A DNA stretch of 64,000 nucleotides from Candidatus Poribacteria bacterium (lineage in GTDB: Bacteria > Poribacteria > WGA-4E > WGA-3G): assembly GCA_022827625.1 (NCBI GenBank), contig JAJEIE010000033.1, positions 248,001-312,000 of the forward strand, in the 5' to 3' direction. Each line of letters starts with the position of its first letter. Position 1 is the stretch's first letter. Shown here piece after piece: positions 14,466-26,944 of this stretch. The position numbers were made by a program, and so were the translations under genes. The notes under the pieces were generated by a model. That model saw nothing but the letters and a program-made list of their open reading frames with translations. It was not told where the DNA came from and ran no database searches.

Positions 14466-15017
14466 TCACAACTTTTGATTGGGCAGAGTTGTTGTGAATT
14501 CTTCAATAGTTTGTGCTTGTATTGCTACGCGGCGGAGCTGCTTGAGCTGCTGCAGATCGTCAATACTCTCCAAGGTAGCCTTTAGGTCTTGCGTAGACTT
14601 CGGTTGGAATCGAAGTTCAAGAGCTTCAAGGATACCTTCAATGGTACTCTCTTTTACGCCATCGCGAATGCCTTGTTGGTGTACCTCTCTGAGATTTTCA
14701 ATAGGTTCCTTGGCGGCATGTTCCTGGAGAATCTTCACAATCATTGGTGCAATAGGGCGGAGTTTTTCCAGTAACTCATCATCATAAATTGAGAGAAAGA
14801 TTCCCTTGCTAACGTCCATAGGGAATCCCTCCACTTGTTCAACACCATCAAGCGCGTAGCGAACGCGCGCGAAGGGACCGTATCGGTGGCCTTTGTGATA
14901 AGGCTCTTCCACCCGTAAAAATTCGATGGAATCGACATTAGGTAAACGTCCTTTCACATCAACTGTCTTATATGTAAGCTCAAGCCTGTCAGCGGGATTC
15001 ATTTTATGTATTTTCAT
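14466..15017 (-). CDS. Unrecognised 183-residue protein, possible partner of the ADP-ribosyltransferase-like gene
   Basis: 183 residues. The N-terminal part (MKIHKMNPADRLELTYKTVD... to FLSIYDDELLEKLRP) is not recognised. The C-terminal part (about 125-180: GVKESTIEGILEALELRFQP, LKATLESIDDLQQLKQLRRV and TIEEFTTTL) resembles the helical tail seen at the end of many Rpn/DUF4351-type and related small proteins, with no nuclease core in front. Start: ATG with AGGAG 8 nt upstream. It follows the 15050-15625 gene by 32 bp on the same strand, so the two form a probable operon. It could be an antitoxin or immunity partner; that is inference from position only. Confidence 0.65.
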   Translation of the reverse strand: MKIHKMNPADRLELTYKTVDVKGRLPNVDSIEFLRVEEPYHKGHRYGPFARVRYALDGVEQVEGFPMDVSKGIFLSIYDDELLEKLRPIAPMIVKILQEHAAKEPIENLREVHQQGIRDGVKESTIEGILEALELRFQPKSTQDLKATLESIDDLQQLKQLRRVAIQAQTIEEFTTTLPNQKL

Positions 15018-15049
15018 GAAAGTGACTCCTAATTATGAAAGATGCCCCT

Positions 15050-15625
15050 CTAATAAACATCAAAGCGATTCTGGACACAATTTGCGGGAATCCTACCGTA
15101 AGCAAGGAGTTCTGCATCTCGGAGCGCGCGGACCAAGGTCTCTAATTCGAGTGTCAAGTTAGGCGGGCGCGGGGTGCCTCCATTTGAGGGAGGCTGCATC
15201 GCTTGTTGTACCAGAAAATGCCCCATATTTCTTGGGTCAACAACACCGAGCAAGAATTCTTGTGAGCCATCGTGCTGGTAGGGAGGTCCCATAGCAGGAG
15301 GCAGTAGTATTTTCGCGATTTCCTTCACCGGGTCCAGAATTGTTATCTCGTCTGGCAGCGGATCTGGCACCTCAATTTCATAGACATAGGCAGGATTGTT
15401 TAGTGTCGGGATCACCGTACTATTTGACACTGCATAGTCGCGTGCCACTCCGTATGAGCGCGTCAGAGAAATAAAAGGGGTGTTGGCAGTGCCTCTGGAA
15501 ATATGATGCATCATCCGAGCAGCCGTTAGCGTCGATTCGGGAGTTCTGGCGGTAAACCCACTTTCCGCTGGATTGTTGAGATACCAATAAGTGTTAATGC
15601 CTGCCCCTCGGTAAAATATAGGCAT
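15050..15625 (-). CDS. Putative ADP-ribosyltransferase-fold protein (toxin-like)
   Basis: 191 residues. MPIFYRGAGIN gives the Y-R-G start of R-S-E type ADP-ribosyltransferases (R6). TPFISLTRSYGVARDYA (about 49-65) matches the FIS-T-S strand and the following helix. YVYEIEVPD and SQEFLLGVVDPRNM supply the later strands and a candidate catalytic Glu in the Q-E position. If active it would transfer ADP-ribose from NAD+ to a protein or nucleic acid target. No secretion signal is visible, so it would act in the cytoplasm. Start: ATG with AAAAGGAACGCA upstream. It is first in a two-gene unit and lies between two decayed copies of one R-M gene. Alternative: a non-enzymatic relative with the same fold. 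Confidence 0.6.
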   Translation of the reverse strand: MPIFYRGAGINTYWYLNNPAESGFTARTPESTLTAARMMHHISRGTANTPFISLTRSYGVARDYAVSNSTVIPTLNNPAYVYEIEVPDPLPDEITILDPVKEIAKILLPPAMGPPYQHDGSQEFLLGVVDPRNMGHFLVQQAMQPPSNGGTPRPPNLTLELETLVRALRDAELLAYGRIPANCVQNRFDVY

Positions 15626-15801: not shown

Positions 15802-15825
15802 GGGATTAGGAAATCCCTCCTACAG
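15802..15825 (-). repeat. REP-like hairpin, GGGATT-stem type
   Basis: GGGATTAGGAAATCCC followed by TCCTACAG, plus-strand tail. A decayed copy (GGGATTGGGAAATCAAGAG) lies just to its left at 15781. It overlaps the last codons of the R-M pseudogene region. Confidence 0.65.
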
Positions 15826-17273
15826 AACAGAAGGTAACTTTTCGATAATATCTACTGTCTCTAAGCTAACGGTGATGACCTTGCCTATCAACTTGACGAT
15901 GTACTGTGGGTCATCGGCACGGTTGGGATCGTTGACGATGCCGCTCCGTTTGTCTGTCTTTACACGATACTGGTCTATCACCCACTCCAATGCGGAACGG
16001 GTGCCGAGTCGGTAATCAAAGACTTGTGGCGGAATGCCGTCGATGGTGAGGAAATTGTTGTAGACGATTTGGGTTTTGTCTCTGGAGAGTTTCATCTTCT
16101 CGACGCGCCAATCAAGTGGGAGGTCGGGGTTCTGGATGAACTTGAGCTTGCTGAATTCGGGTTGAGATTCATAGTGAACGTGGATTTCTGCGAGTCGTTC
16201 GCCAGCCTTTGCGAAGCTCCAGAAGTCCTTAGCAAAAGGGATGTGGGGCAGATCGCGTTTGAGGTTCGCCTCGTATTTTTCTCGATAGTCGGGGTGATGT
16301 AAGAGTCCGTAGTTGTAGTGGAAGATGTCCCACTTGGTGATGGTGTCGTCTTTATAGTGGGTTCGGAACTCGATTAATGCCCAATCGGTGATGTTTTCGC
16401 ATGCCATCAAACGCCACACCCTCAAGAAAGCCGTTATTCGTTACAAAAGCGACAACCCCTTCTTCTCCAATCCTATCCGATGCCCATCGAATCGCTTTTA
16501 CATACGGATCGGAGAGTTTATTTCTCAGCGTTGCTTTAGAATCTCTGGCGTACGTGTCCGCAACCAACTTGTCCATCGTCTCATATTTCCGGTTCTTGTT
16601 GTTGTCGTTTTCGTTGACCTGCCCCATATTATAGGGTGGGTTGCCGATAACGATGAACATATCGGATTCTTTCTGCTTTTCAACGTGTGCGGTATTGTCA
16701 GGGGTGAAAAGATTGTGTATTGTTTTGGCGTTCGGTTTCGATGAGTGCGGTTAGTTTTTCACCGAGTTCTGGCACGATCTCTCGGAATTCGGTGACGGCG
16801 GTATGCCACGCGGCGATGTTCTCCTCCTGATAGGCGAAGAAGGTCTGTAGCACGTGGACGAGGTTCCGCGGTTCGCGGATGTCGAGGTCGAGTTGGAGCT
16901 CACCGTGTTGGTAGAGGAGTGCGTGGGTTGGCGACTGCACGACGATGTTCTTGGACGGATAGCCTGCAGCAAATTTCTTGTCTGCTTCTGTGTAAAGATT
17001 GTCCTGTGTATCTTTTGCTTCCCAATGTCCAAAGGGTAGGTTGAAGGTATCGACGACTTCGCCATCGGGTGTGATGCGTCTTTTTTCTGGTGTGTAGTGT
17101 GTCTTTTCACAGAGGAGCGTGAGGTTTGCTTGGCGCGAGTAGTGTTGGAGGAGGTTTTGGAATGCTGCTCGGACGGTGCCTTCGTTCTGTTCGCCAAGCC
17201 GTTCATAGGTTTCAAGTTCGGCGTAGTATTGTTTGATGGGTTTGTGGGTGGGTCTAATATTGAGATGGGGCAT
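15820..17273 (-). pseudogene. Type IIG/ISP-like restriction-modification methylase, broken by two deletions
   Basis: Three pieces in different frames line up in the order of one large enzyme. Piece 1 (17273-16698) is the N-terminal nuclease-side region: MPHLNIRPTHKPIKQYYAEL, LPFGHWEAKDTQDNLYTEAD, FAAGYPSKNIVVQSP. Piece 2 (about 16720-16352) has LFTPDNTAHVEKQKESD and the N6-adenine methylase motif IV NPPYN, then WASDRIGEEGVVAFVTNN and AFDGMRKH. Piece 3 (16425-15820) is the C-terminal target-recognition side: ENITDWALIEFRTHY, TKWDIFHYNYGLLHHPDYR, FDYRLGTRSALEWVIDQYRV. From memory, intact relatives are near 1000 residues; here the middle and the part after motif IV are missing. Both joins shift the frame, so no functional enzyme is expected. 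Confidence 0.85.
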
Positions 17274-18001: not shown

Positions 18002-21000
18002 TTAATCGGATTCGTCCGGATCATACACATTTTCATAATAGTATACAACCGTTTTCAGATCCCACCAATGTTTCTCTTTAAAACAGATGCGTATCATTTC
18101 ACTATTCGATTTCAAAAGGACTTGGATGCATATCTTTTCAGCATTGGGTTCCAAGTAGATTTGAGGGTTATCTGAATTCTTCAGCGCGTTATAGAAAGCC
18201 TCTCGGGTTTTTCGGTCTTTCTTCACAAACTCTTTATACTTTGCCGCGCACTCTGGACACAGTGCCAGATATTGTGCTTCATGCTCTTTGAAAAAGTGAC
18301 CTTTTCCAAATGCCTCGACTGCTTCAAAGTAATCCTCATCGCTATTCCGCTTTTTGAACGGCATACCCTTTGAACATATCTGACACAGCATTCTGTTTTC
18401 GTCCGTTGTCGTATACTGTTCCCTAAGATAAGTCCTTGGGTCAATAGTGTTGCGGGTTGACCGAATTCTCCACGCCCGAGTTTCATATTCTTTTTCCTCA
18501 GTCTCATCAAGTTCTATAATAAGTAATTCACTACGCCGATTTCGGGTGCGAAGATTTTTTAGTAACTCGTCCGGTGTTTTTCCTTGCTCTTTAAAAAAAT
18601 CTGAGGCCAACTTGGCTTCATCCGCCGAACTGAATCCGATTTCCGCAGCATATTGATTTCGTCTCCTTTTTTCGTATTCCTCATGAATGTTTTCTAACCT
18701 TTGTTGTTTTGTAGTCTTGCCAAATTCAATCGCTTCAAGCCATGCTTGCTCGGCATCGTAGGGAAAATCTCCAGGGAGGCACTCTCTTAAAGCGTCGCAG
18801 GGACGTACAAAAGAAATGGTGTCTCCATTCTTTTGTGGAACCCATTTTGAATTCCTTAATTCGTGTACAAGAGTAGAATGTCCCTCATTGAGAGGATTAG
18901 ATTGATTCCAACAGAACCGTGCTTTTAGGCAAGATTCCGGAAGAAAACACATCGTTTTCCAAAACAATTTTGACTTAACAATCGAAGGATTAGTAAGAAG
19001 AAGCTGGAATTCAGGGATCCTATAATCTTCATCTATCCCTGTATCACTTCTCCAATGGCCTGATCCTTGCCCAAGATGACCGCTCCATTGGGGATGATTT
19101 TCTGGAATTATCTGCCCTTTAGCCTCTAGTTGTGTTCTTGCTCCTAACGCCTCCGCGAACTTGCCAATCTTTTTTGGATCTATGTCAGATTGTTCGTAAT
19201 CTAATGAAAAATAAGGATCAACATTTTCTTCATCTATAAATTCCCAGTATTCCTCATCCTCATAATAGACATTCAGACCTGTCTCAAGATAAGGTGAATC
19301 CAGGAAAATGAGAGATGTAGACCAGTTGCCGCCAGAAGTATTGAAGATATTGTATTCATTAAACAAAATTCCATTATTGGGATTGTTCTCCACAAAGGAA
19401 ATGAATCTCTTCATATCTTTCTCGTGAAGTTTAGAGGGTATTATAGTGTCTGGGTCCTCGTATCGCTGTCTCAAAATTGCTTTAATTCGCGCTTCTTCAT
19501 TCACTTCGGAAACGCCAATATCTTCAAGAAAGTTCCGAGCTTTTTTCTGCTGATTTTTGTTTTTTCCGGATGAATAGACACTTTTAACAACATAATGAAA
19601 ATTTATATCTTGTGTGTCTCCTTCTTGAAATTCATACTCCACGTCATCAATAGGAAAATAGCACTCACTACCGATTCTGTATTCACCATCACTACAACGA
19701 ACAATACGAAGGTCTGAACAGAGATAATCATCATCACTAAGGAAGGCGTATAGCTGTTGGTGCCATTCGTCAGATTTGCTTTTCAACCATTCTGTTGCCT
19801 TTTCATGGGTATCCAGCTTCTCTATCAAATTCTCAGTTGTCCAACGAGAAATATCCAGCATGGATAAGAAATTGTCTTCCGGTTGGTTAATTTGCCGCGG
19901 GTTAGCAATCCATAAACGCTGAGAATTATCTTTCCAGAGAAGTGTTGCCAGATCTTTGTCGTCAATCAGATCAGATAATGTCCTTGGACCTCTATAGCAC
20001 TCTGAGGCTGGAGCATGCCCTCCCTGTTTCATGGGCACCAATTTTTTCTGATTAAATTCTGTGGTTAGCTGCTCTTGGATCGGAAGGTAAAAAGGAGACA
20101 GATTATTCGTATTATTAGGTAGTGTCGCGAGGAATTCTACATCCAACAACCCTCGATCTCGAATAACATGCATTGACTCAGCAACTAAATCTGCAATGTG
20201 GTCGCGTAGTTCGTCATTGGCTGGAGTATCTCGAACACTGTCCCGAGCGACAGTTGATGCAAATGGGGCATGCAAGTGAAATCTTAGTTTAGAGGTTTCC
20301 TTTACTGCAGGAAAATAGATAGAGACCTGTCCAGGATTCAGCGGGATGATCTTCCATCCCCCACCTTCAGATTTATCCATACCAAAAGCAATCGCGATTT
20401 GACAACACTTAGGGCTATCGTCCTCGTCCTGAACATCAACATCCTTCGTAAATCGAAGATACTGGTTAGACTCAGGAGTTTGACCTCCAGGAGGCCTAAC
20501 ATAAATTTCAATTCGGTTTTCATCATTCACAAAACCTCTTCGTTCTAAAAAACCTACTGTTGAATCAGGTAGACGATATTCTATCTTGCGAATGTTATTC
20601 AGGAATAGTAACGTATTTTCGTTTAGTTCCCGGAGATTCTTTTCTATTTCAGCCATCGCTTTTTCAGCAGATTTTTTGGGATTGTCAAAAGGAAAAACAA
20701 AACGAGTTTTCCCTTCACCAAGTGCACCTGGAAACAACTTTTCCGTATCAGGTACAACTATATCCCGAATACGAAAATGAAACTCGCTCGATTCAATCTC
20801 TGGTGTGGCAGTGTAAGCAAATACCGCCTTGAAACCGATACCAAACTTACCAATGGCAGTAGGATCATCTTTTTTTGTGCTAAAACCTATACTTGTTATC
20901 GCTTCTACGTCTTTTAGAGAAAAAAGTCGATCTCCATTATGTTCAAATACCGCGCTATCTTTGTTTAGTAGGAACCGAACCTCTGATGCTCCTGCATCCT

Positions 21001-21631
21001 CAGCGTTTTGGAGGAGTTCATAGATAAAATGCGCATCGTCCGGATACAAGTCAGTGAGCAAATGCTTAATGCCCTCTTCAAAATTGTTTTCTTTGTTTGC
21101 TTCTACCCATTTTTTGCGCTTTTCGCGTAATTCGTGAAGATTTTGGTTCTGTGCCAGGTTTTCATTTAATTCTTCTCTAAAACCGAATAACCCACCTCGG
21201 TATACAAGCACAACTTCCTTACCAACCCTCATAAATAAATGATTATGATCAAAAGCTTGCAGCTCACCGCGAATTACATGACCTCTACGCGTAACAATGG
21301 CTATATTATTCGCAACAACTGATTCCAGTTTATCGCCATCAACACAAAAATAATTTTGTGCAGTGCTTTTTCGGTTGAGCCTGAGATCCTTTACCGGACC
21401 AAACATTTTGATGTGCGGTTTCACATCTGGCATCTTTTCAAGGGGAAAAGCAAAAAGAATATCCTCTTTATGCAGAAGATGACGTTTACCTTCTTTGTCA
21501 ACACCGTGTACTCTATTATGGATATGAGTCTTGATATCCATTAAATCAACTTTGCGTTCGTGTAAGTAAAATCGGATAGGTGTATCAAAATTCTGTGTCA
21601 GTAGTAAATCAGCGTCCCAATCATGATTCAT
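18002..21631 (-). CDS. Sacsin/Hsp90-type ATPase with N-terminal Hfq/Sm-like domain
   Basis: 1209 residues. I start it at 21631 (MNHDWDADLL) because AAAGGAA precedes it and homology with the 25205-25750 protein begins there; an upstream in-frame start would overlap the helicase gene. About 1-150 is shared with that protein, including ILFAFPLEKMPDVKPHIK and the Hfq-like IVTRRGHVIRGELQAFD...LVYRGGLFGF (about 111-151). At 200-280 is a GHKL/sacsin ATPase: YELLQNAEDAGA (N box, N209, D212) and AIGKFGIGFKAVFAY (G box). Near the C-terminus, LCQICSKG and LALCPECAAKYKEF form a two-CxxC zinc-binding site like a degenerate HNH. It lies 49 bp after the helicase gene, so they are probably one operon. Such ATPases paired with helicases are typical of defence loci; an antiviral role is inferred. 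Confidence 0.8.
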   Translation of the reverse strand: MNHDWDADLLLTQNFDTPIRFYLHERKVDLMDIKTHIHNRVHGVDKEGKRHLLHKEDILFAFPLEKMPDVKPHIKMFGPVKDLRLNRKSTAQNYFCVDGDKLESVVANNIAIVTRRGHVIRGELQAFDHNHLFMRVGKEVVLVYRGGLFGFREELNENLAQNQNLHELREKRKKWVEANKENNFEEGIKHLLTDLYPDDAHFIYELLQNAEDAGASEVRFLLNKDSAVFEHNGDRLFSLKDVEAITSIGFSTKKDDPTAIGKFGIGFKAVFAYTATPEIESSEFHFRIRDIVVPDTEKLFPGALGEGKTRFVFPFDNPKKSAEKAMAEIEKNLRELNENTLLFLNNIRKIEYRLPDSTVGFLERRGFVNDENRIEIYVRPPGGQTPESNQYLRFTKDVDVQDEDDSPKCCQIAIAFGMDKSEGGGWKIIPLNPGQVSIYFPAVKETSKLRFHLHAPFASTVARDSVRDTPANDELRDHIADLVAESMHVIRDRGLLDVEFLATLPNNTNNLSPFYLPIQEQLTTEFNQKKLVPMKQGGHAPASECYRGPRTLSDLIDDKDLATLLWKDNSQRLWIANPRQINQPEDNFLSMLDISRWTTENLIEKLDTHEKATEWLKSKSDEWHQQLYAFLSDDDYLCSDLRIVRCSDGEYRIGSECYFPIDDVEYEFQEGDTQDINFHYVVKSVYSSGKNKNQQKKARNFLEDIGVSEVNEEARIKAILRQRYEDPDTIIPSKLHEKDMKRFISFVENNPNNGILFNEYNIFNTSGGNWSTSLIFLDSPYLETGLNVYYEDEEYWEFIDEENVDPYFSLDYEQSDIDPKKIGKFAEALGARTQLEAKGQIIPENHPQWSGHLGQGSGHWRSDTGIDEDYRIPEFQLLLTNPSIVKSKLFWKTMCFLPESCLKARFCWNQSNPLNEGHSTLVHELRNSKWVPQKNGDTISFVRPCDALRECLPGDFPYDAEQAWLEAIEFGKTTKQQRLENIHEEYEKRRRNQYAAEIGFSSADEAKLASDFFKEQGKTPDELLKNLRTRNRRSELLIIELDETEEKEYETRAWRIRSTRNTIDPRTYLREQYTTTDENRMLCQICSKGMPFKKRNSDEDYFEAVEAFGKGHFFKEHEAQYLALCPECAAKYKEFVKKDRKTREAFYNALKNSDNPQIYLEPNAEKICIQVLLKSNSEMIRICFKEKHWWDLKTVVYYYENVYDPDESD

Positions 21632-21680
21632 TATGAAATTCCTTTGGATTAAATTTCCAAATCCATTTATACAACTATAA

Positions 21681-24600
21681 TTAGAGGAAAGGATCAGCAA
21701 ATACTTCCAAAATCCCATAAGCCACAAGTTCTGTTGTAACATCGGCTTTTGCTGCTGCTTCATCAAATTCCTCGGCACGCCGTCGATAATCTACCTCGGC
21801 GTTGGCAAGCTCGCTACGTCGCATGCGTTGAATGTTTGCATTCGTCGCCTGCGCGATTCTATCCTCAAGGAGTTTAACGCGTTTCTGATGACTGGTTGAC
21901 AGACTTTCTTTACGGTAACTTGCTAACGCCCGCGTATGCTCCTGATGCTTAGAGCGTGCTTCAGCCCATAGCTGCTGTTGCACATTTTCTAACGCTTCCT
22001 GTTCAGTAAGGACTGGATTTTCCTGTATCTCATTATCCACTGCCCTTTCAAGTAAGTAGTTAAGGTGTGGTGTCAACTCACCTGATATAGCAATCGGCTT
22101 AAGTACCAAATGTTCTCGAATTCCGAGGAATCGCCATTGATAGATAGCAAATTCATATCTCCCAGCGGGAACCTTATTTGTTCTGACCTTGAGCATAGCA
22201 ACAACTTCTTGATCGGTTTTTAATGCTTCAGCAGCCTGTTTCACCAACGGATGTGTCGGCATGATAAATACAGCATCAGAATGGTGAGCAGCACAATCGG
22301 CTTCAAAGGTTATAGATAGATGCTGATCGGATCCCTTTAACCATCTCTCCCACTCCCGATAAACGCGAGTATTCTCCCTCGAAAATTGCTGAAAGTCACC
22401 TAATAAGGCATTCCGGGCAGATTCGGAAAGCCGAAGGGTCTTGAGAGGTTTCTCACCAAGGATGAATTCTTGCTCGCTTCCAATCTGCTTTGCCAGATAG
22501 CGCGTAACCAGCCGCTGTATAGATTCAGGCGATAGCCAGAAACTGGAGGCATCCGCCACCTCTTTCTCCATTCTATCTTCAGGAAAACGGAGTCCAAACA
22601 GATCTAATTGTTGTTCTTCAAGGGCTTCCTGCATCTTTATCTTTGCAATTTTGCCAACAGCCAGTGCTTCCAATTTGGTTCTACGCGCTTCTGGTGGTAA
22701 TTCGTAATTCTGGACGATGTCACGTAACTCGGTCGTAATTTCACTAAGGATTTCCTCGTTACCACCCAACGCACTCTCAAATATACCGATGCGACGTAAG
22801 CATCGTTCATAGATATCGGCATCAACGGTTCCCGGGGTAATCAGATTGATGATGGTTACACTTTCGCTCTTTTGACCTCTCCGGTCAATCCGACCGATAC
22901 GTTGCTCAATTTTCATCGGATTCCACGGTAGGTCGTAGTTGACGATACAGTCACAGAATTGGTAGTCTAACCCTTCACACCCAACTTCTGAAAAAAGCAT
23001 CAAGTCAACGCTATCGCTGTCCGATCGTGGTTTTTCAAACCGATTGCGGAGTTCTAAACGTTCTCCATCCGGCACCCCACCGTGAATGAGTCCGACGCGA
23101 AAACCGTCGGCTATAAGGTGTTTGTGCAGATAGGCGAGTGTATGGCGGAAGCTGCTAAAAATCATCATCTTGTTATTGGAAAGACATTGCCTATCCTGAA
23201 CAATTTTTCGGAGTGCTGCTAACTTTAAATCCTCTGCATCAAGATTTTTTGCCTTTTCAAGCAGCACCTGGATCTGTTCACGAATTTGTGTAACGATTTC
23301 TGAAGAAGGCATGGCATCAACGGCGTCAGCTTCTGCCCATTCAAGTTCGTCAAGGTGGCGATGCAAAATATCTTCAAGGAGTGGTTCGAGTCCATGTAGA
23401 CAACTTGCCAATTGTCGGCGGAGTGTGGTCATCATGAAGCCAACTCCCTGACTACCGTGTAAGCTGCGGAATATTTCCGACTGGGTTTCAAGCAATGCCT
23501 CATGGAGTTCGGATTCCTCCGTCGCCAATTCTACTTCCACAGTGTGTGAACGACGGATTGTAAATTCACCAATATCACGACGACGGGTTCTATTGATAAT
23601 TCCTGAAAAAGTGTGGAGTGCTTCCATATCCATGATGAGTTGAACCCGATCTTCTGGAGTGATGTTTTTTCTACCCAAATGCTTTCTAATCCGTATGAAT
23701 TCGGGATTATCCTTTAGGATTGATTGCCCCCAGGAAGTTGACGCAGCTTGGTCAAGTGTTTCCGTTGCGATTTGTATCCATCCCCTCTCTTGCGCACGCG
23801 CAGCATCAACGGCTTGATTAATGAAAGGATTCGGCTTCGCTATATGATTAAAACTCTCCTCATCCAAAATCAGATCAGGACGCAAAACATTCAGGAGAAC
23901 AAACAGGTCATGACTACCGAGTTGGATAGGCGTAGCTGTGAGAAAAACAGCTGCATCCGCATTTTCACAGAAAAACCGAACTGCTTCGTGATTGGCTGTC
24001 CCCTGATTTCGGATATGATGTGCTTCGTCAACAATGACCAGATCAAAGCGCGGCGGTGGATCCAGATCCAGAAGCCCTTTACCATTTTTTTTCTTGCGTT
24101 TCTTTCCGGGACCAAAAAGAAGATCGTTATTCAACAACGAATAGGGGAGAATCACTTTTTTGTATTGTTCCGGCCATTCACCGTCCAGATGCGTCTCTCT
24201 AATGCAGTGTTGCAATTTCTTTCCGTCGAGATGCTCAAAATTTTCGTCGAACCGTTTCATCTCCCGCTGCCATTTTTGCTCGGCTACTAAGGGGCGCGGA
24301 CATATAATGAGGACAGATTCAACATCAGTTCGCGCTTGTAATTCCCTCAAAATCAATCCAGCCTCAATTGTCTTTCCTACACCAACACTATCAGCGATAA
24401 GCAACCTCGGCAGGTCTGCTTTGATGAATTTCAGGACGGGTCGATATTGGTACGGAATAAAGTCAACCCGCGCTGCGTTGAGGGAGTATAACGCAGATAT
24501 TGCGGGATAACGAATTTGAAGGGCTGTGAGGTAAGCGTGAAATTCATCACACGAAAGACTTTGAAACTGATCGGTTTGAACCTCAATTTGCAGCTGAGAA

Positions 24601-24761
24601 GGATAAAAGGTCTGAATACTTCCATTAACAAAAACGTTGATGCGGCTTTCAGGGGACCCAGGTAAGACTGCGACAACAGCTCCGCGAGTCGTCGGGTCCG
24701 CTTTTAGCAGGACAATTTGACCTGGAACAAATTCTTGCAAAGGATTCGGTGTGTTATTCAT
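21681..24761 (-). CDS. SNF2/RapA-type DEAH helicase
   Basis: 1026 residues. The N-terminal 60 residues (FVPGQIVLLKADPTTRGAVV...) look like a small beta-barrel. Helicase motifs follow: Q-motif-like FIPYQYRPVL (101-110), Walker A ADSVGVGKTIEAGL (K130), DEAHHIRN (245-252) and TATPIQ (275-280). The second lobe has MMIFSSFRHTLAYL, LFSEVGCEGLDYQ and WNPMKIEQRIGRIDRRGQ with the arginine fingers. The C-terminal about 350 residues are helical. It resembles stand-alone SNF2 helicases such as DrmD of DISARM, but no other DISARM gene is present. Start: ATG with AAAGG upstream. Presumed role: ATP-driven translocation or remodelling on DNA, together with the downstream ATPase. Confidence 0.85.
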   Translation of the reverse strand: MNNTPNPLQEFVPGQIVLLKADPTTRGAVVAVLPGSPESRINVFVNGSIQTFYPSQLQIEVQTDQFQSLSCDEFHAYLTALQIRYPAISALYSLNAARVDFIPYQYRPVLKFIKADLPRLLIADSVGVGKTIEAGLILRELQARTDVESVLIICPRPLVAEQKWQREMKRFDENFEHLDGKKLQHCIRETHLDGEWPEQYKKVILPYSLLNNDLLFGPGKKRKKKNGKGLLDLDPPPRFDLVIVDEAHHIRNQGTANHEAVRFFCENADAAVFLTATPIQLGSHDLFVLLNVLRPDLILDEESFNHIAKPNPFINQAVDAARAQERGWIQIATETLDQAASTSWGQSILKDNPEFIRIRKHLGRKNITPEDRVQLIMDMEALHTFSGIINRTRRRDIGEFTIRRSHTVEVELATEESELHEALLETQSEIFRSLHGSQGVGFMMTTLRRQLASCLHGLEPLLEDILHRHLDELEWAEADAVDAMPSSEIVTQIREQIQVLLEKAKNLDAEDLKLAALRKIVQDRQCLSNNKMMIFSSFRHTLAYLHKHLIADGFRVGLIHGGVPDGERLELRNRFEKPRSDSDSVDLMLFSEVGCEGLDYQFCDCIVNYDLPWNPMKIEQRIGRIDRRGQKSESVTIINLITPGTVDADIYERCLRRIGIFESALGGNEEILSEITTELRDIVQNYELPPEARRTKLEALAVGKIAKIKMQEALEEQQLDLFGLRFPEDRMEKEVADASSFWLSPESIQRLVTRYLAKQIGSEQEFILGEKPLKTLRLSESARNALLGDFQQFSRENTRVYREWERWLKGSDQHLSITFEADCAAHHSDAVFIMPTHPLVKQAAEALKTDQEVVAMLKVRTNKVPAGRYEFAIYQWRFLGIREHLVLKPIAISGELTPHLNYLLERAVDNEIQENPVLTEQEALENVQQQLWAEARSKHQEHTRALASYRKESLSTSHQKRVKLLEDRIAQATNANIQRMRRSELANAEVDYRRRAEEFDEAAAKADVTTELVAYGILEVFADPFL

Positions 24762-24942
24762 ACTTTACCTTTGTCCTTTCCTTGTAATTTGAAAGTTTTA
24801 CTCACCTAATAATAGGTTAGGGCTATTTATGGCGAAACCCATAATTAAGTGCACACTGAAAAGTTAGCGAGGTTAGGAAACCTCGCCAGCGTCGGTAGGG
24901 CTTTCTCGTTTACTATTTTCAAAATGTATACTTATTTATCGG

Positions 24943-25062
24943 ATCCACCATAGTTTTAAGGTTTTTTTGCGCGTTTGAGTGGGCGAGTCGCGAACGGGAG
25001 CTCGCTCCTACAGCGAAGAGTCGGGATTGGGAAATCCCTCCTACAGAAGAACTATGGTGGAT
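24943..25062. repeat. 13-bp perfect inverted repeat flanking REP-like hairpins
   Basis: The arms ATCCACCATAGTT and AACTATGGTGGAT enclose 94 bp with two hairpins of the CCTAC-tailed kind. In RNA the whole would fold into a branched hairpin upstream of the helicase start. Confidence 0.6.
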
Positions 25063-25105
25063 GCCGTAATTACTTACACATCCTCCGAATTCCGAAACGT
25101 CTATG

Positions 25106-25131
25106 GCACAGGCTAACAGCCTATGCTACAA
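25106..25131 (-). repeat. REP-like hairpin, AGGCT-stem type
   Basis: Third copy of AGGCTAACAGCCTATGCTAC in the window, same orientation as the copies at 6888 and 11530. Confidence 0.65.
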
Positions 25132-25204
25132 GTCTGGTAAATATAACATTATTTTTAGAATTCACCATAAATGCCCCTAATAATAGGTAGTGGGGTCTTG
25201 ACAC

Positions 25205-25750
25205 TTATAAAGTCTCGTCAGATTGCGTTTCAATCGTGAAATCAAGCAAGCCGTGTCGGTACACAATCACCAGCTGCCCCCCGATTCGCATGTAAAGAAC
25301 ATATTTGTCGAAATGGTGAACCGAACCTATCAAGACGTGTCCTGACCGGGTAACAATGTTCACATTGGATTTGTTCGCCTTCGCTTGCTTAAGAAGTTCG
25401 TCATCCACGTGATACCGATCTGCTCTGGTTTGAATCGGTTGAAGATTCTCTGCTCTCAACGACTTTCTTATTTTTACATAGGGTTTCAGGTCCGGCATCT
25501 TCTCTTTAGGAAAAGCAAACAAAACGTCCAATTTCGCCATCTTCACCCGTTCACGGTTGGTATCAATCGCCCATATTATATACGCGTTCGTTCTGATTTT
25601 GGACATATCGCATATACCTGTATAAGTGACGAAGCGGACGGGTTGTGCAAAATGTTGGCTTAATATCTCGTTAGCGTTCCAATTATCGCTATTTTCCTTT
25701 GATTGTTGAGATTCCGGTTGCTGTTCGTCCAAATCTAATACTGTTGCCAT
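25205..25750 (-). CDS. Small protein with Hfq/Sm-like domain, related to the ATPase N-terminus
   Basis: 181 residues. About 1-25 are polar and Gln-rich. From 22 on it matches the N-terminus of the sacsin-type ATPase: WNANEILSQHF, DVLFAFPKEKMPDLKPYVK (75-93), then IVTRSGHVLIGSVHHFDKYV and VIVYRHGLLDF (about 132-171). The last part follows the Sm1/Sm2 pattern of Hfq (G-x(n)-FDxFV...VYKHAI). It is expected to bind RNA or to form rings with its relatives; this is inferred. Start: ATG after AGGAAATATGAGGT. It begins 21 bp after the SLBB export gene on the same strand, so it is probably cotranscribed with it, and sits 443 bp before the helicase gene. Confidence 0.7.
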   Translation of the reverse strand: MATVLDLDEQQPESQQSKENSDNWNANEILSQHFAQPVRFVTYTGICDMSKIRTNAYIIWAIDTNRERVKMAKLDVLFAFPKEKMPDLKPYVKIRKSLRAENLQPIQTRADRYHVDDELLKQAKANKSNVNIVTRSGHVLIGSVHHFDKYVLYMRIGGQLVIVYRHGLLDFTIETQSDETL

Positions 25751-25771: not shown

Positions 25772-26944
25772 TCACCCCGACAACTGGATTAGAATGCCGA
25801 CGCCGGCGATGATGATATAGGCGAATGTGGTGACGAGGCCCCAATTCACCTCAAACTTCTTTTTTATTTCTAAAATATCTCCCGGATAGAGTAAGACCTG
25901 CTGCGGGGTTGTGCCTTCGGTGGTATTGGGTGCTAATGAGACCTCTACAGTTGTGCCGTCACGGCGGTGGATAACAACCGCTTCTCGGTTGGCTGAAACG
26001 TCGAACCCGCCGCTAAGGGCAACGGCTTGGGAAATGCTCAGGGGTCCGCGAACACGCTGTGCTGCTGGGTTGCGGACATAACCCGTCACATAGATAGGTT
26101 CAACTTTGAAGACGTTGGGAACATACAGCACATCGCCGTCTGATAGAAGAGGGGATGGCGAATTGTTCTCGGACGATTTCCAAAACTGCTCCGAACGGTT
26201 AAATTCGGTGAGTGTGCCGTCTTTTGCGACTTTTACGAGTGCTGTGAGATCTGCCTCTTGGGTGGGGCCGCCGGCGCGTGCGAGTGCCTGCGCAATGCCA
26301 ATCTCTCCACGGATAAAGAGTTTTCCGGGGGTCTGGACCTGCCCCTGCACTTCAATCACACTCAAAGGCATGACGAACACGAGATCGTTCACACCGACGC
26401 GGATATCTGTGTAAGCACGGTTTGTTGAGAGGTCGTAGGTTTCGACCCTTTGTGCGGTGTCGGTACGGATGAGCTGCACGCCTTGACGGTCGGCATTTTC
26501 CGCCATACCCCCGGCGAGTGCGATGGCACGGTATAAACCGATGTCCGTTTCAGGGGAGATGGGGTAACGTCCCGGTGTCTTTACTGCACCACCCACAAAA
26601 ACGCCGTGTTCCTGTAAGACGGGAGACACCATAACGATAGGATTGCGGACATGATTATCCCTGACGAGAAACTCGCGAATCAGATGGTTGACCGCCATCA
26701 CCGTCTGTCCAGCAACATCAAAGTCGCTACCGAAATAGTTAATCTTTCCGTCTTCACGGACCTGTACGGAATGTGTATACTCCGGTTGCCCGACCACCGC
26801 AATGAGGAGGGTATCCCCTTTTTTAATGCGGTAGACATCGCTGAAAAGTGTGGGACTCGCAATGAAAAACAGTAAAATCGTAAACGCTTGCAAGCAACGG
26901 ACGGGAAAACGGGAAACTCGCAAGCTTCGGAAAAAATAGATCAT
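25772..26944 (-). CDS. Polysaccharide export/biosynthesis protein with SLBB domains
   Basis: 390 residues. A signal or membrane segment (about 16-36, LQAFTILLFFIASPTLF) is followed by a Poly_export domain (YRIKKGDTLLIAVVGQPEYTHSVQVREDGKINY). Three SLBB-type repeats follow: VFVGGAVKTPGRYPIS, VEVQGQVQTPGKLFIRGEIGIAQALARAGG (read around 190-220), and IYVTGYVRNPAAQRVRGPLSISQAVALSGG. The C-terminus is a membrane helix (WGLVTTFAYIIIAGVGILIQLSG). Wza-like proteins form the outer-membrane channel for capsule or exopolysaccharide export. No glycan synthesis genes are adjacent. The start codon overlaps the end of a short upstream frame (ATGA), and no strong Shine-Dalgarno is seen. Confidence 0.85.
   Translation of the reverse strand: MIYFFRSLRVSRFPVRCLQAFTILLFFIASPTLFSDVYRIKKGDTLLIAVVGQPEYTHSVQVREDGKINYFGSDFDVAGQTVMAVNHLIREFLVRDNHVRNPIVMVSPVLQEHGVFVGGAVKTPGRYPISPETDIGLYRAIALAGGMAENADRQGVQLIRTDTAQRVETYDLSTNRAYTDIRVGVNDLVFVMPLSVIEVQGQVQTPGKLFIRGEIGIAQALARAGGPTQEADLTALVKVAKDGTLTEFNRSEQFWKSSENNSPSPLLSDGDVLYVPNVFKVEPIYVTGYVRNPAAQRVRGPLSISQAVALSGGFDVSANREAVVIHRRDGTTVEVSLAPNTTEGTTPQQVLLYPGDILEIKKKFEVNWGLVTTFAYIIIAGVGILIQLSG

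Follow-up and report, generated by a model that had tools for sequence, protein, structure and literature searches.

A 64,000-nucleotide stretch of a Candidatus Poribacteria genome (contig JAJEIE010000033.1; hereafter the window) was analysed; the Poribacteria are a sponge-associated bacterial phylum. Two genes on the minus strand of the window encode a small protein (P0001) and a sacsin-type GHKL ATPase (P0003), which share a module of approximately 155 residues. We conclude that this module is almost certainly a tandem Sm domain of Hfq descent. Sequence comparison further shows that a single clade of such modules is attached to at least four kinds of predicted enzymes related to defence families. 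Below, L and G numbers denote loci and genomes, respectively.

The shared module

P0001 aligns with residues 4-154 of P0003 (38% identity over 153 residues, E 1e-31), which places the module at the N-terminus of the ATPase. An earlier sequence-only reading of this DNA had proposed an Hfq/Sm-like fold, fused to an Hsp90-type (GHKL) ATPase and repeated in a separate small protein. Each of these proposals was borne out, and both stretches quoted in support were confirmed on the minus strand. The similarity takes in the LFAFPxEKMPDxKPxxK block as well as the later Sm stretch and is not confined to low-complexity sequence.

The second half of P0001 matches Pfam Hfq (34.7 bits; cut-off 27) and lies below the NCBIfam Hfq equivalog cut-off (32.3 vs 61.7 bits). 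P0003 by itself gives no Pfam Hfq match, and its second Sm domain is therefore assigned via the P0001 family. Among 58 diverse module copies, 42 match Pfam Hfq singly at E<=0.01. When a profile of P0001 relatives was compared with the PDB, solved Hfqs were the leading matches (best 1kq1, E 9.7e-8), and the 38 sequences found at E<=10 were all Hfq or Hfq-like, except for one dynein light chain. With hhalign, the second half scores 62.6 against Hfq, the highest of 200 column shuffles being 15.5. An AlphaFold2 model of full-length P0001 had a mean confidence score (pLDDT) of 43, and only its second half (pLDDT 50-70) was used, the first half being refolded separately. In this low-confidence model the second half forms a helix and five strands, as in the Sm fold, and superposes on Hfq with a VIA Z of 9.9 (root-mean-square deviation, rmsd, 0.8; 60 residues). 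No family besides Hfq stood out in the VIA lists, absence from which proves nothing. At the sequence level, these comparisons demonstrate that the second half of the module is homologous to Hfq.

The LFAFP block had been regarded as an additional element preceding the Sm stretch. It is indeed present in both proteins (the P0001 copy, at about 25472-25522, falls outside the interval 21176-25366 given in the earlier reading), but it is not separate. The first half of P0001, folded alone (AlphaFold2, 13 alignment rows; pLDDT 75.7), is modelled as a helix and five strands. Strand 5 is VLFAFP, so the block consists of the final strand of a first Sm-like barrel and the exit from it. This barrel is a second, divergent Sm-like domain in addition to the Hfq-type one, which makes the module a tandem Sm. 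In Foldseek, Hfq ranks first for this half (E 0.058, probability 1.00), and its top VIA matches are also Hfqs, with a Z of 7.2 (rmsd 2.8, 62 residues) that is lower than the value of 8 that the tool calls safe. Structure prediction, which the earlier reading had proposed as a check, is favourable for both halves of P0001, with this reservation for the first. The WYL protein 7qfz was also present among the Foldseek rows for the first half, as a weak match only.

Sequence support for the Sm-like nature of the first half is moderate. In the full set of 76 copies, the N-terminal half scores marginally against the C-terminal half (hhalign 16.56; shuffle maximum 16.39, n=200) and within the shuffle range against Hfq. 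A basal subset of 25 copies, picked after the full-set result had been seen, gave a clearer separation: its first half reached 26.3 with the second half of the full 76-copy set (highest shuffle 23.2), 24.0 with the second half of the subset itself (highest shuffle 21.1) and 21.0 with Hfq (highest shuffle 15.5), n being 300 in each case. A copy from outside the phylum (L176) shows a Pfam Hfq_1 match on its first half (residues 84-117, E 3.3e-5), which is under the cut-off. No sequence match to the first half was found in the PDB.

The module as a probable addition to a helicase/ATPase cassette

The ATPase part of P0003 matches Pfam SACS and, above the cut-off, the NCBIfam sacsin domain; lizard sacsin is matched in the PDB, and the ELLQNAEDA and GIGFK motifs could be aligned (values in Table 1). 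It is also related to PADLOC TmtA (E 9.3e-63, positions 4-794 of 1302), a profile without a curated cut-off. The adjoining helicase, P0002, matches PADLOC DrmD (E 2.3e-112) and remains under the NCBIfam DrmD equivalog cut-off (313 vs 610 bits). No DrmA, DrmB, DrmC or other DISARM component was detected among the ten neighbours scanned.

The same pair also occurs without the module. On three Rhizobiaceae plasmids, a helicase (45-47% identity) adjoins an ATPase (28-30%) whose alignment begins at P0003 residue 169, just past the module. A Methanomethylovorans plasmid carries a pair that is more distant (30% and 27%) and likewise lacks it. Within the phylum, relatives of P0003 without the module were found in G081 (66% identity) and G046 (60%), and by hand count the module is present on 4 of 13 matches covering most of the ATPase (G057, with an in-frame stop codon between ATPase and module, being excluded). 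On the basis of these pairs, it is likely that the module is an add-on to a defence-type helicase/ATPase cassette. A small gene common upstream of the rhizobial helicases was considered as a counterpart of P0001 and rejected, since it has no Pfam match (one was scanned) and no visible likeness to P0001. A scan of viral contigs returned 36 pattern matches, none of which was confirmed as a relative, and a phage collection gave one weak match, to the ATPase only.

Enzymes carrying the module

Searches with Pfam and blastp revealed the module on (i) four sacsin ATPases, (ii) seven GmrSD-type nucleases (L096, L097, L098, L110, L115, L128, L147), (iii) four UvrD helicases with GIY-YIG matches (L094, L100, L126, L130; weak in L094 and L100) and (iv) one RNase H-like exonuclease (L095). 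The GmrSD type of L097 and L098 was deduced not from Pfam but from 39-40% identity to L096, and that of L147, whose start is lost at a contig end, only from 31% identity to L096. The PADLOC relatives of the attached enzymes scanned are TmtA, Orf5/HEC-06 and SspE, and GajB; the exonuclease has none. Among the ATPases, the module is N-terminal in the window and in L089, and C-terminal in L092 and L093. This difference, together with the approximately 25% identity between P0003 and the C-terminal type, suggests that there were probably at least two attachment events.

A quick tree built from 81 rows groups the 16 attached copies, without exception, with 15 P0001-type proteins in a single clade (SH-aLRT branch support 99). 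Module copies of less than 120 profile positions and exact repeats were removed before counting, which left out L100 (module over two frames), L084, L009 and L012 (105-aa frames), L103, L104, L151, L152 and L153; L101, with no enzyme domain, was excluded from the fused/standalone count.

Several of these loci have unusual arrangements. A single GmrSD-type protein of L110 (3715-7095) bears two tandem-Sm modules and cold-shock domains. L094 (3178-9079), as well as L100, L126 and L130, contains two adjoining UvrD paralogues with a GIY-YIG match inside the helicase; only the second paralogue has the tandem Sm, and this same paralogue contains a GrpE-like stretch. In L084 (4185-8009), ATPase and module lie in one frame split by a stop codon, while they are fused in L092, the two ATPases being 77% identical.

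The uracil pocket and selective constraint

The pocket was defined as an aromatic residue at position 42, K or R at 56 and H at 57, in E. coli Hfq numbering. The proximal face of Hfq includes F39, Y55, K56 and H57 and prefers U-rich RNA, according to a published account (PMC11770335). P0001 has Y, R and H at the three positions and thus an intact pocket, and the ATPase-borne copy has N, R and G, having lost both the aromatic residue and the histidine. The earlier reading had drawn on the RNA binding of Hfq rings as background for the fused copy; given these losses, Hfq-style binding of U-rich RNA is not to be assumed for P0003.

Aromatic-42 and His-57 are retained in all 64 standalone copies; among the 16 attached copies, they occur in one and seven, respectively. 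Position 42 of the attached copies is D in eight and E in two, with N, H, S, L and Y also found. This contrast is a pattern rather than a statistic, because the tree needs only about two changes of the "fused" label and because a paired test yields a single independent pair on starred branches, with which significance is unreachable.

The ratio of nonsynonymous to synonymous substitution rates (dN/dS) between the window and L089 is 0.205 for the ATPase-borne module and 0.144 for the remainder of P0003; for P0001-type proteins the median is 0.32 over 91 pairs. Judging from these values, the ATPase-borne module is under purifying selection.

Distribution of the module and a core protein of the phylum

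Matches to P0001 were found in 75 of the 84 genomes of the phylum. Much of this spread is due to a core protein composed of a cold-shock domain followed by a tandem Sm (an example is located at L003, 973-1929). It is present at full length in 63 of the 84 genomes (67 with split matches counted) and, by hand count, in 55 of 58 in the family of the window. This near-universal protein probably represents the parent form of the module.

Pfam Hfq was matched at the cut-off in 29 of the 84 genomes, and among the matches listed nearly all are tandem-type frames, with a short stand-alone Hfq frame (96 aa) above the cut-off in G002 only. Ordinary Hfq thus seems to be missing from the phylum, within the limits of gaps in metagenome-assembled genomes and of profile sensitivity, and the cold-shock/tandem-Sm protein is probably its stand-in.

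Outside the phylum (302 genomes, i.e. the 386 scanned minus these 84), full tandems were identified in five genomes (G125, G153, G177, G180, G270), a cold-shock domain being present in two. The other matches inspected consist of the second half alone or of broken frames. One out-of-phylum protein of 537 aa (L200, 7727-9340) has a tandem Sm and ends in a stretch weakly matching ParB_N. A scan of genome contigs, which detects close relatives only, returned Poribacteria alone.

Genetic organization of the locus

The order of the genes on the minus strand is: SLBB/Poly_export gene, P0001, P0002 helicase, P0003 ATPase and broken pieces of a type ISP gene (Table 1). The start codon of P0003 is situated 49 bp past the stop codon of the helicase.

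Table 1. Features of the tandem-Sm locus (window coordinates)
Feature	Position	Strand	Basis or remark
SLBB/Poly_export gene (c2)	25772..26944	-	Pfam; edge marker of variable locus; in 33/38 genus genomes
P0001, standalone tandem-Sm protein, 181 aa	25205..25750	-	start 21 bp past SLBB/Poly_export gene
P0001 first Sm-like domain, residues 22-100	25451..25687	-	ends in LFAFPKEKMPD block; AlphaFold2, Foldseek, VIA
P0001 second Sm domain, Hfq type, about residues 110-176	25223..25423	-	Pfam Hfq 117-170, PDB profile, VIA
P0002, DrmD-like SNF2 helicase, 1026 aa	21681..24761	-	PADLOC and NCBIfam DrmD
P0003, tandem Sm and sacsin-type GHKL ATPase, 1209 aa	18002..21631	-	ATG 21631, stop 18002
P0003 first Sm-like domain with LFAFPLEKMPD block	21386..21625	-	alignments
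P0003 second Sm domain	21158..21364	-	pocket positions F42->N, H57->G
P0003 sacsin ATP-binding domain, residues 186-285	20777..21076	-	Pfam SACS 3.5e-22; PDB lizard sacsin 5v47 E 9.8e-12; motif alignment
Type ISP restriction-modification gene, broken remnants	15820..17273	-	beside helicase/ATPase cassette

The SLBB locus is a hotspot, in which P0001 lies directly past the SLBB gene in 14 loci and is missing in 16 (some of the contigs end early; G047 and G057, where the module is attached to the ATPase or follows it, and G050, where the SLBB gene and the module lie on different contigs, were excluded). Type ISP genes or their remnants accompany 9 of the 14 loci with P0001 and 15 of the 16 without it. 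The possibility that P0001 is a fixed partner of the helicase and ATPase is not supported, since it is no commoner where the pair is present. In five loci (L077, L078, L080, L085, L089), P0001 carries an N-terminal segment resembling that of the helicase itself (three detected by phmmer at E<1e-15, all five by viewing the sequences), which could reflect a shared function or a deletion scar.

The 443-bp gap between P0001 and the helicase (24762-25204) contains no called gene, and its sequence resembles an interspersed repeat. Two small genes (14466-15625; 183 and 191 aa; clusters c42 and c76) have no confident Pfam or PADLOC family and recur beside type ISP genes; they are possibly a toxin/antitoxin-like pair.

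Possible role of the module

Our preferred explanation, whose chances we put a little short of even, is that the module acts as a docking or nucleic-acid-binding add-on of defence enzymes, with P0001 as the contact to RNA or single-stranded DNA (ssDNA). The module would let an enzyme dock onto a tandem-Sm ring or onto nucleic acid; that it serves docking rather than direct sensing is a tentative view. By analogy with three double-Sm Hfqs suggested to form a hexamer (PMC2877685), tandem-Sm subunits might assemble as a ring on which the enzymes dock. The standalone P0001, with its pocket kept, would supply the contact to RNA (or ssDNA), and the main task of the pocket-less copy would be to keep the ATPase within the ring. 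The bound phage DNA or transcript would then be the target of the sacsin-type ATPase, which would close on ATP, and of the SNF2 helicase. A broader version is unlikely: in it, unrelated defence enzymes of all four kinds would use the module to attach to one shared ring of RNA-binding standalone subunits, or be licensed by it, so that phage RNA would trigger systems that are otherwise independent, as a phylum-specific immune hub. Several observations weigh against the docking explanation. A helicase accompanies P0001 in 4 of 14 SLBB loci, and 4 of the 16 loci that lack P0001 also have one, so P0001 is not an obligate part of the pair. It is located 443 bp from the helicase and 21 bp from the SLBB gene, and may therefore belong to the latter. 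The sub-threshold VIA score of the first half and the few label changes behind the pocket contrast count on the same side.

Alternatively, each enzyme-borne module may bind a ligand of its own (RNA, ssDNA or a nucleotide) and switch the enzyme on, its pocket having been altered accordingly; this we consider doubtful, though a serious contender. The recurrent acidic residues at position 42 are closer to a new specificity than to decay, cold-shock or S1 domains adjoin the module in several fusions, and WYL Sm-like domains on helicases and nucleases have been proposed as ligand sensors (PMC4012209). However, residues 42 and 57 differ among the attached copies, which therefore do not form a single new pocket, and an acidic residue is unfavourable for nucleic acid. 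It is quite improbable that P0001 is a housekeeping RNA chaperone tied to the SLBB/Poly_export gene, with a domain common to the defence enzymes by descent only. Its position directly past that gene and its lack of association with the helicase and ATPase agree with such a role; its placement in the clade of enzyme-attached copies, apart from the cold-shock core protein, the 16 SLBB loci without it and the helicase-like segment in five loci do not. That the ATPase-borne module is a decaying, functionless leftover is very unlikely. Its pocket residues are gone and close relatives of the ATPase manage without it, yet its dN/dS (0.205, against 0.144 for the rest of the protein) speaks against decay and the frame is open in both the window and L089. 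Chance or convergent resemblance of an SH3-like barrel unrelated to Hfq is scarcely credible: the missing Pfam match of P0003 alone and the lack of a PDB match for the first half are set against Hfq or Hfq-like proteins making up 37 of the 38 PDB sequences and against the wide separation of the second-half hhalign score from its shuffles.

Comparison with known systems

Two Sm domains in one chain have been described for Hfq of Z. mobilis (PMC2877685). The module resembles Hfq (PF17209), including the tandem Hfq of Zymomonas and other Sphingomonadales, in the fold and sequence of its second half. It differs in its far diverged first half, in its fusion to ATPases, nucleases and helicases, and in falling below the NCBIfam Hfq cut-offs. 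In the open-licence literature, we found no report of a GHKL ATPase, GmrSD or UvrD protein that bears a domain of the Hfq type. The nearest precedent is provided by the zinc-finger/Hfq-like proteins encoded next to a helicase on thermococcal and methanococcal plasmids (PMC3543421). They also combine an Hfq-like domain with another domain beside a helicase, but have a single Sm, occur on archaeal plasmids and are not fused to an ATPase or nuclease.

The helicase P0002 is similar to DrmD of DISARM, from which it is set apart by the equivalog cut-off and by the lack of other DISARM components among the neighbours scanned. P0003 is related to the ATPase of Tiamat (TmtA). Tiamat is a single-gene system, and such a layout does not apply here, since a helicase adjoins the ATPase both in the window and on the four plasmids. 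A GHKL domain is also present in the defence protein VcSduA (PMC12137116). P0003 differs from Tiamat, VcSduA and other GHKL defence ATPases in being paired with an SNF2 helicase and in bearing a tandem Sm module.

If the module does sense or gather RNA, it would link RNA recognition with DNA-directed defence and offer a way to approach the triggering of sacsin-type ATPase/helicase pairs. Its distribution suggests that the phylum has swapped ordinary Hfq for a cold-shock/tandem-Sm protein. The known Hfq is a free-standing RNA chaperone; in this phylum, a double version is bolted onto several unrelated defence-type enzymes. In this respect it is comparable to the WYL domains, Sm-like modules that are found on a range of defence helicases and nucleases and are often present twice (PMC4012209), and that differ from it in not being Hfq by sequence; WYL is not among the five Pfam families matched by the 58 module members.

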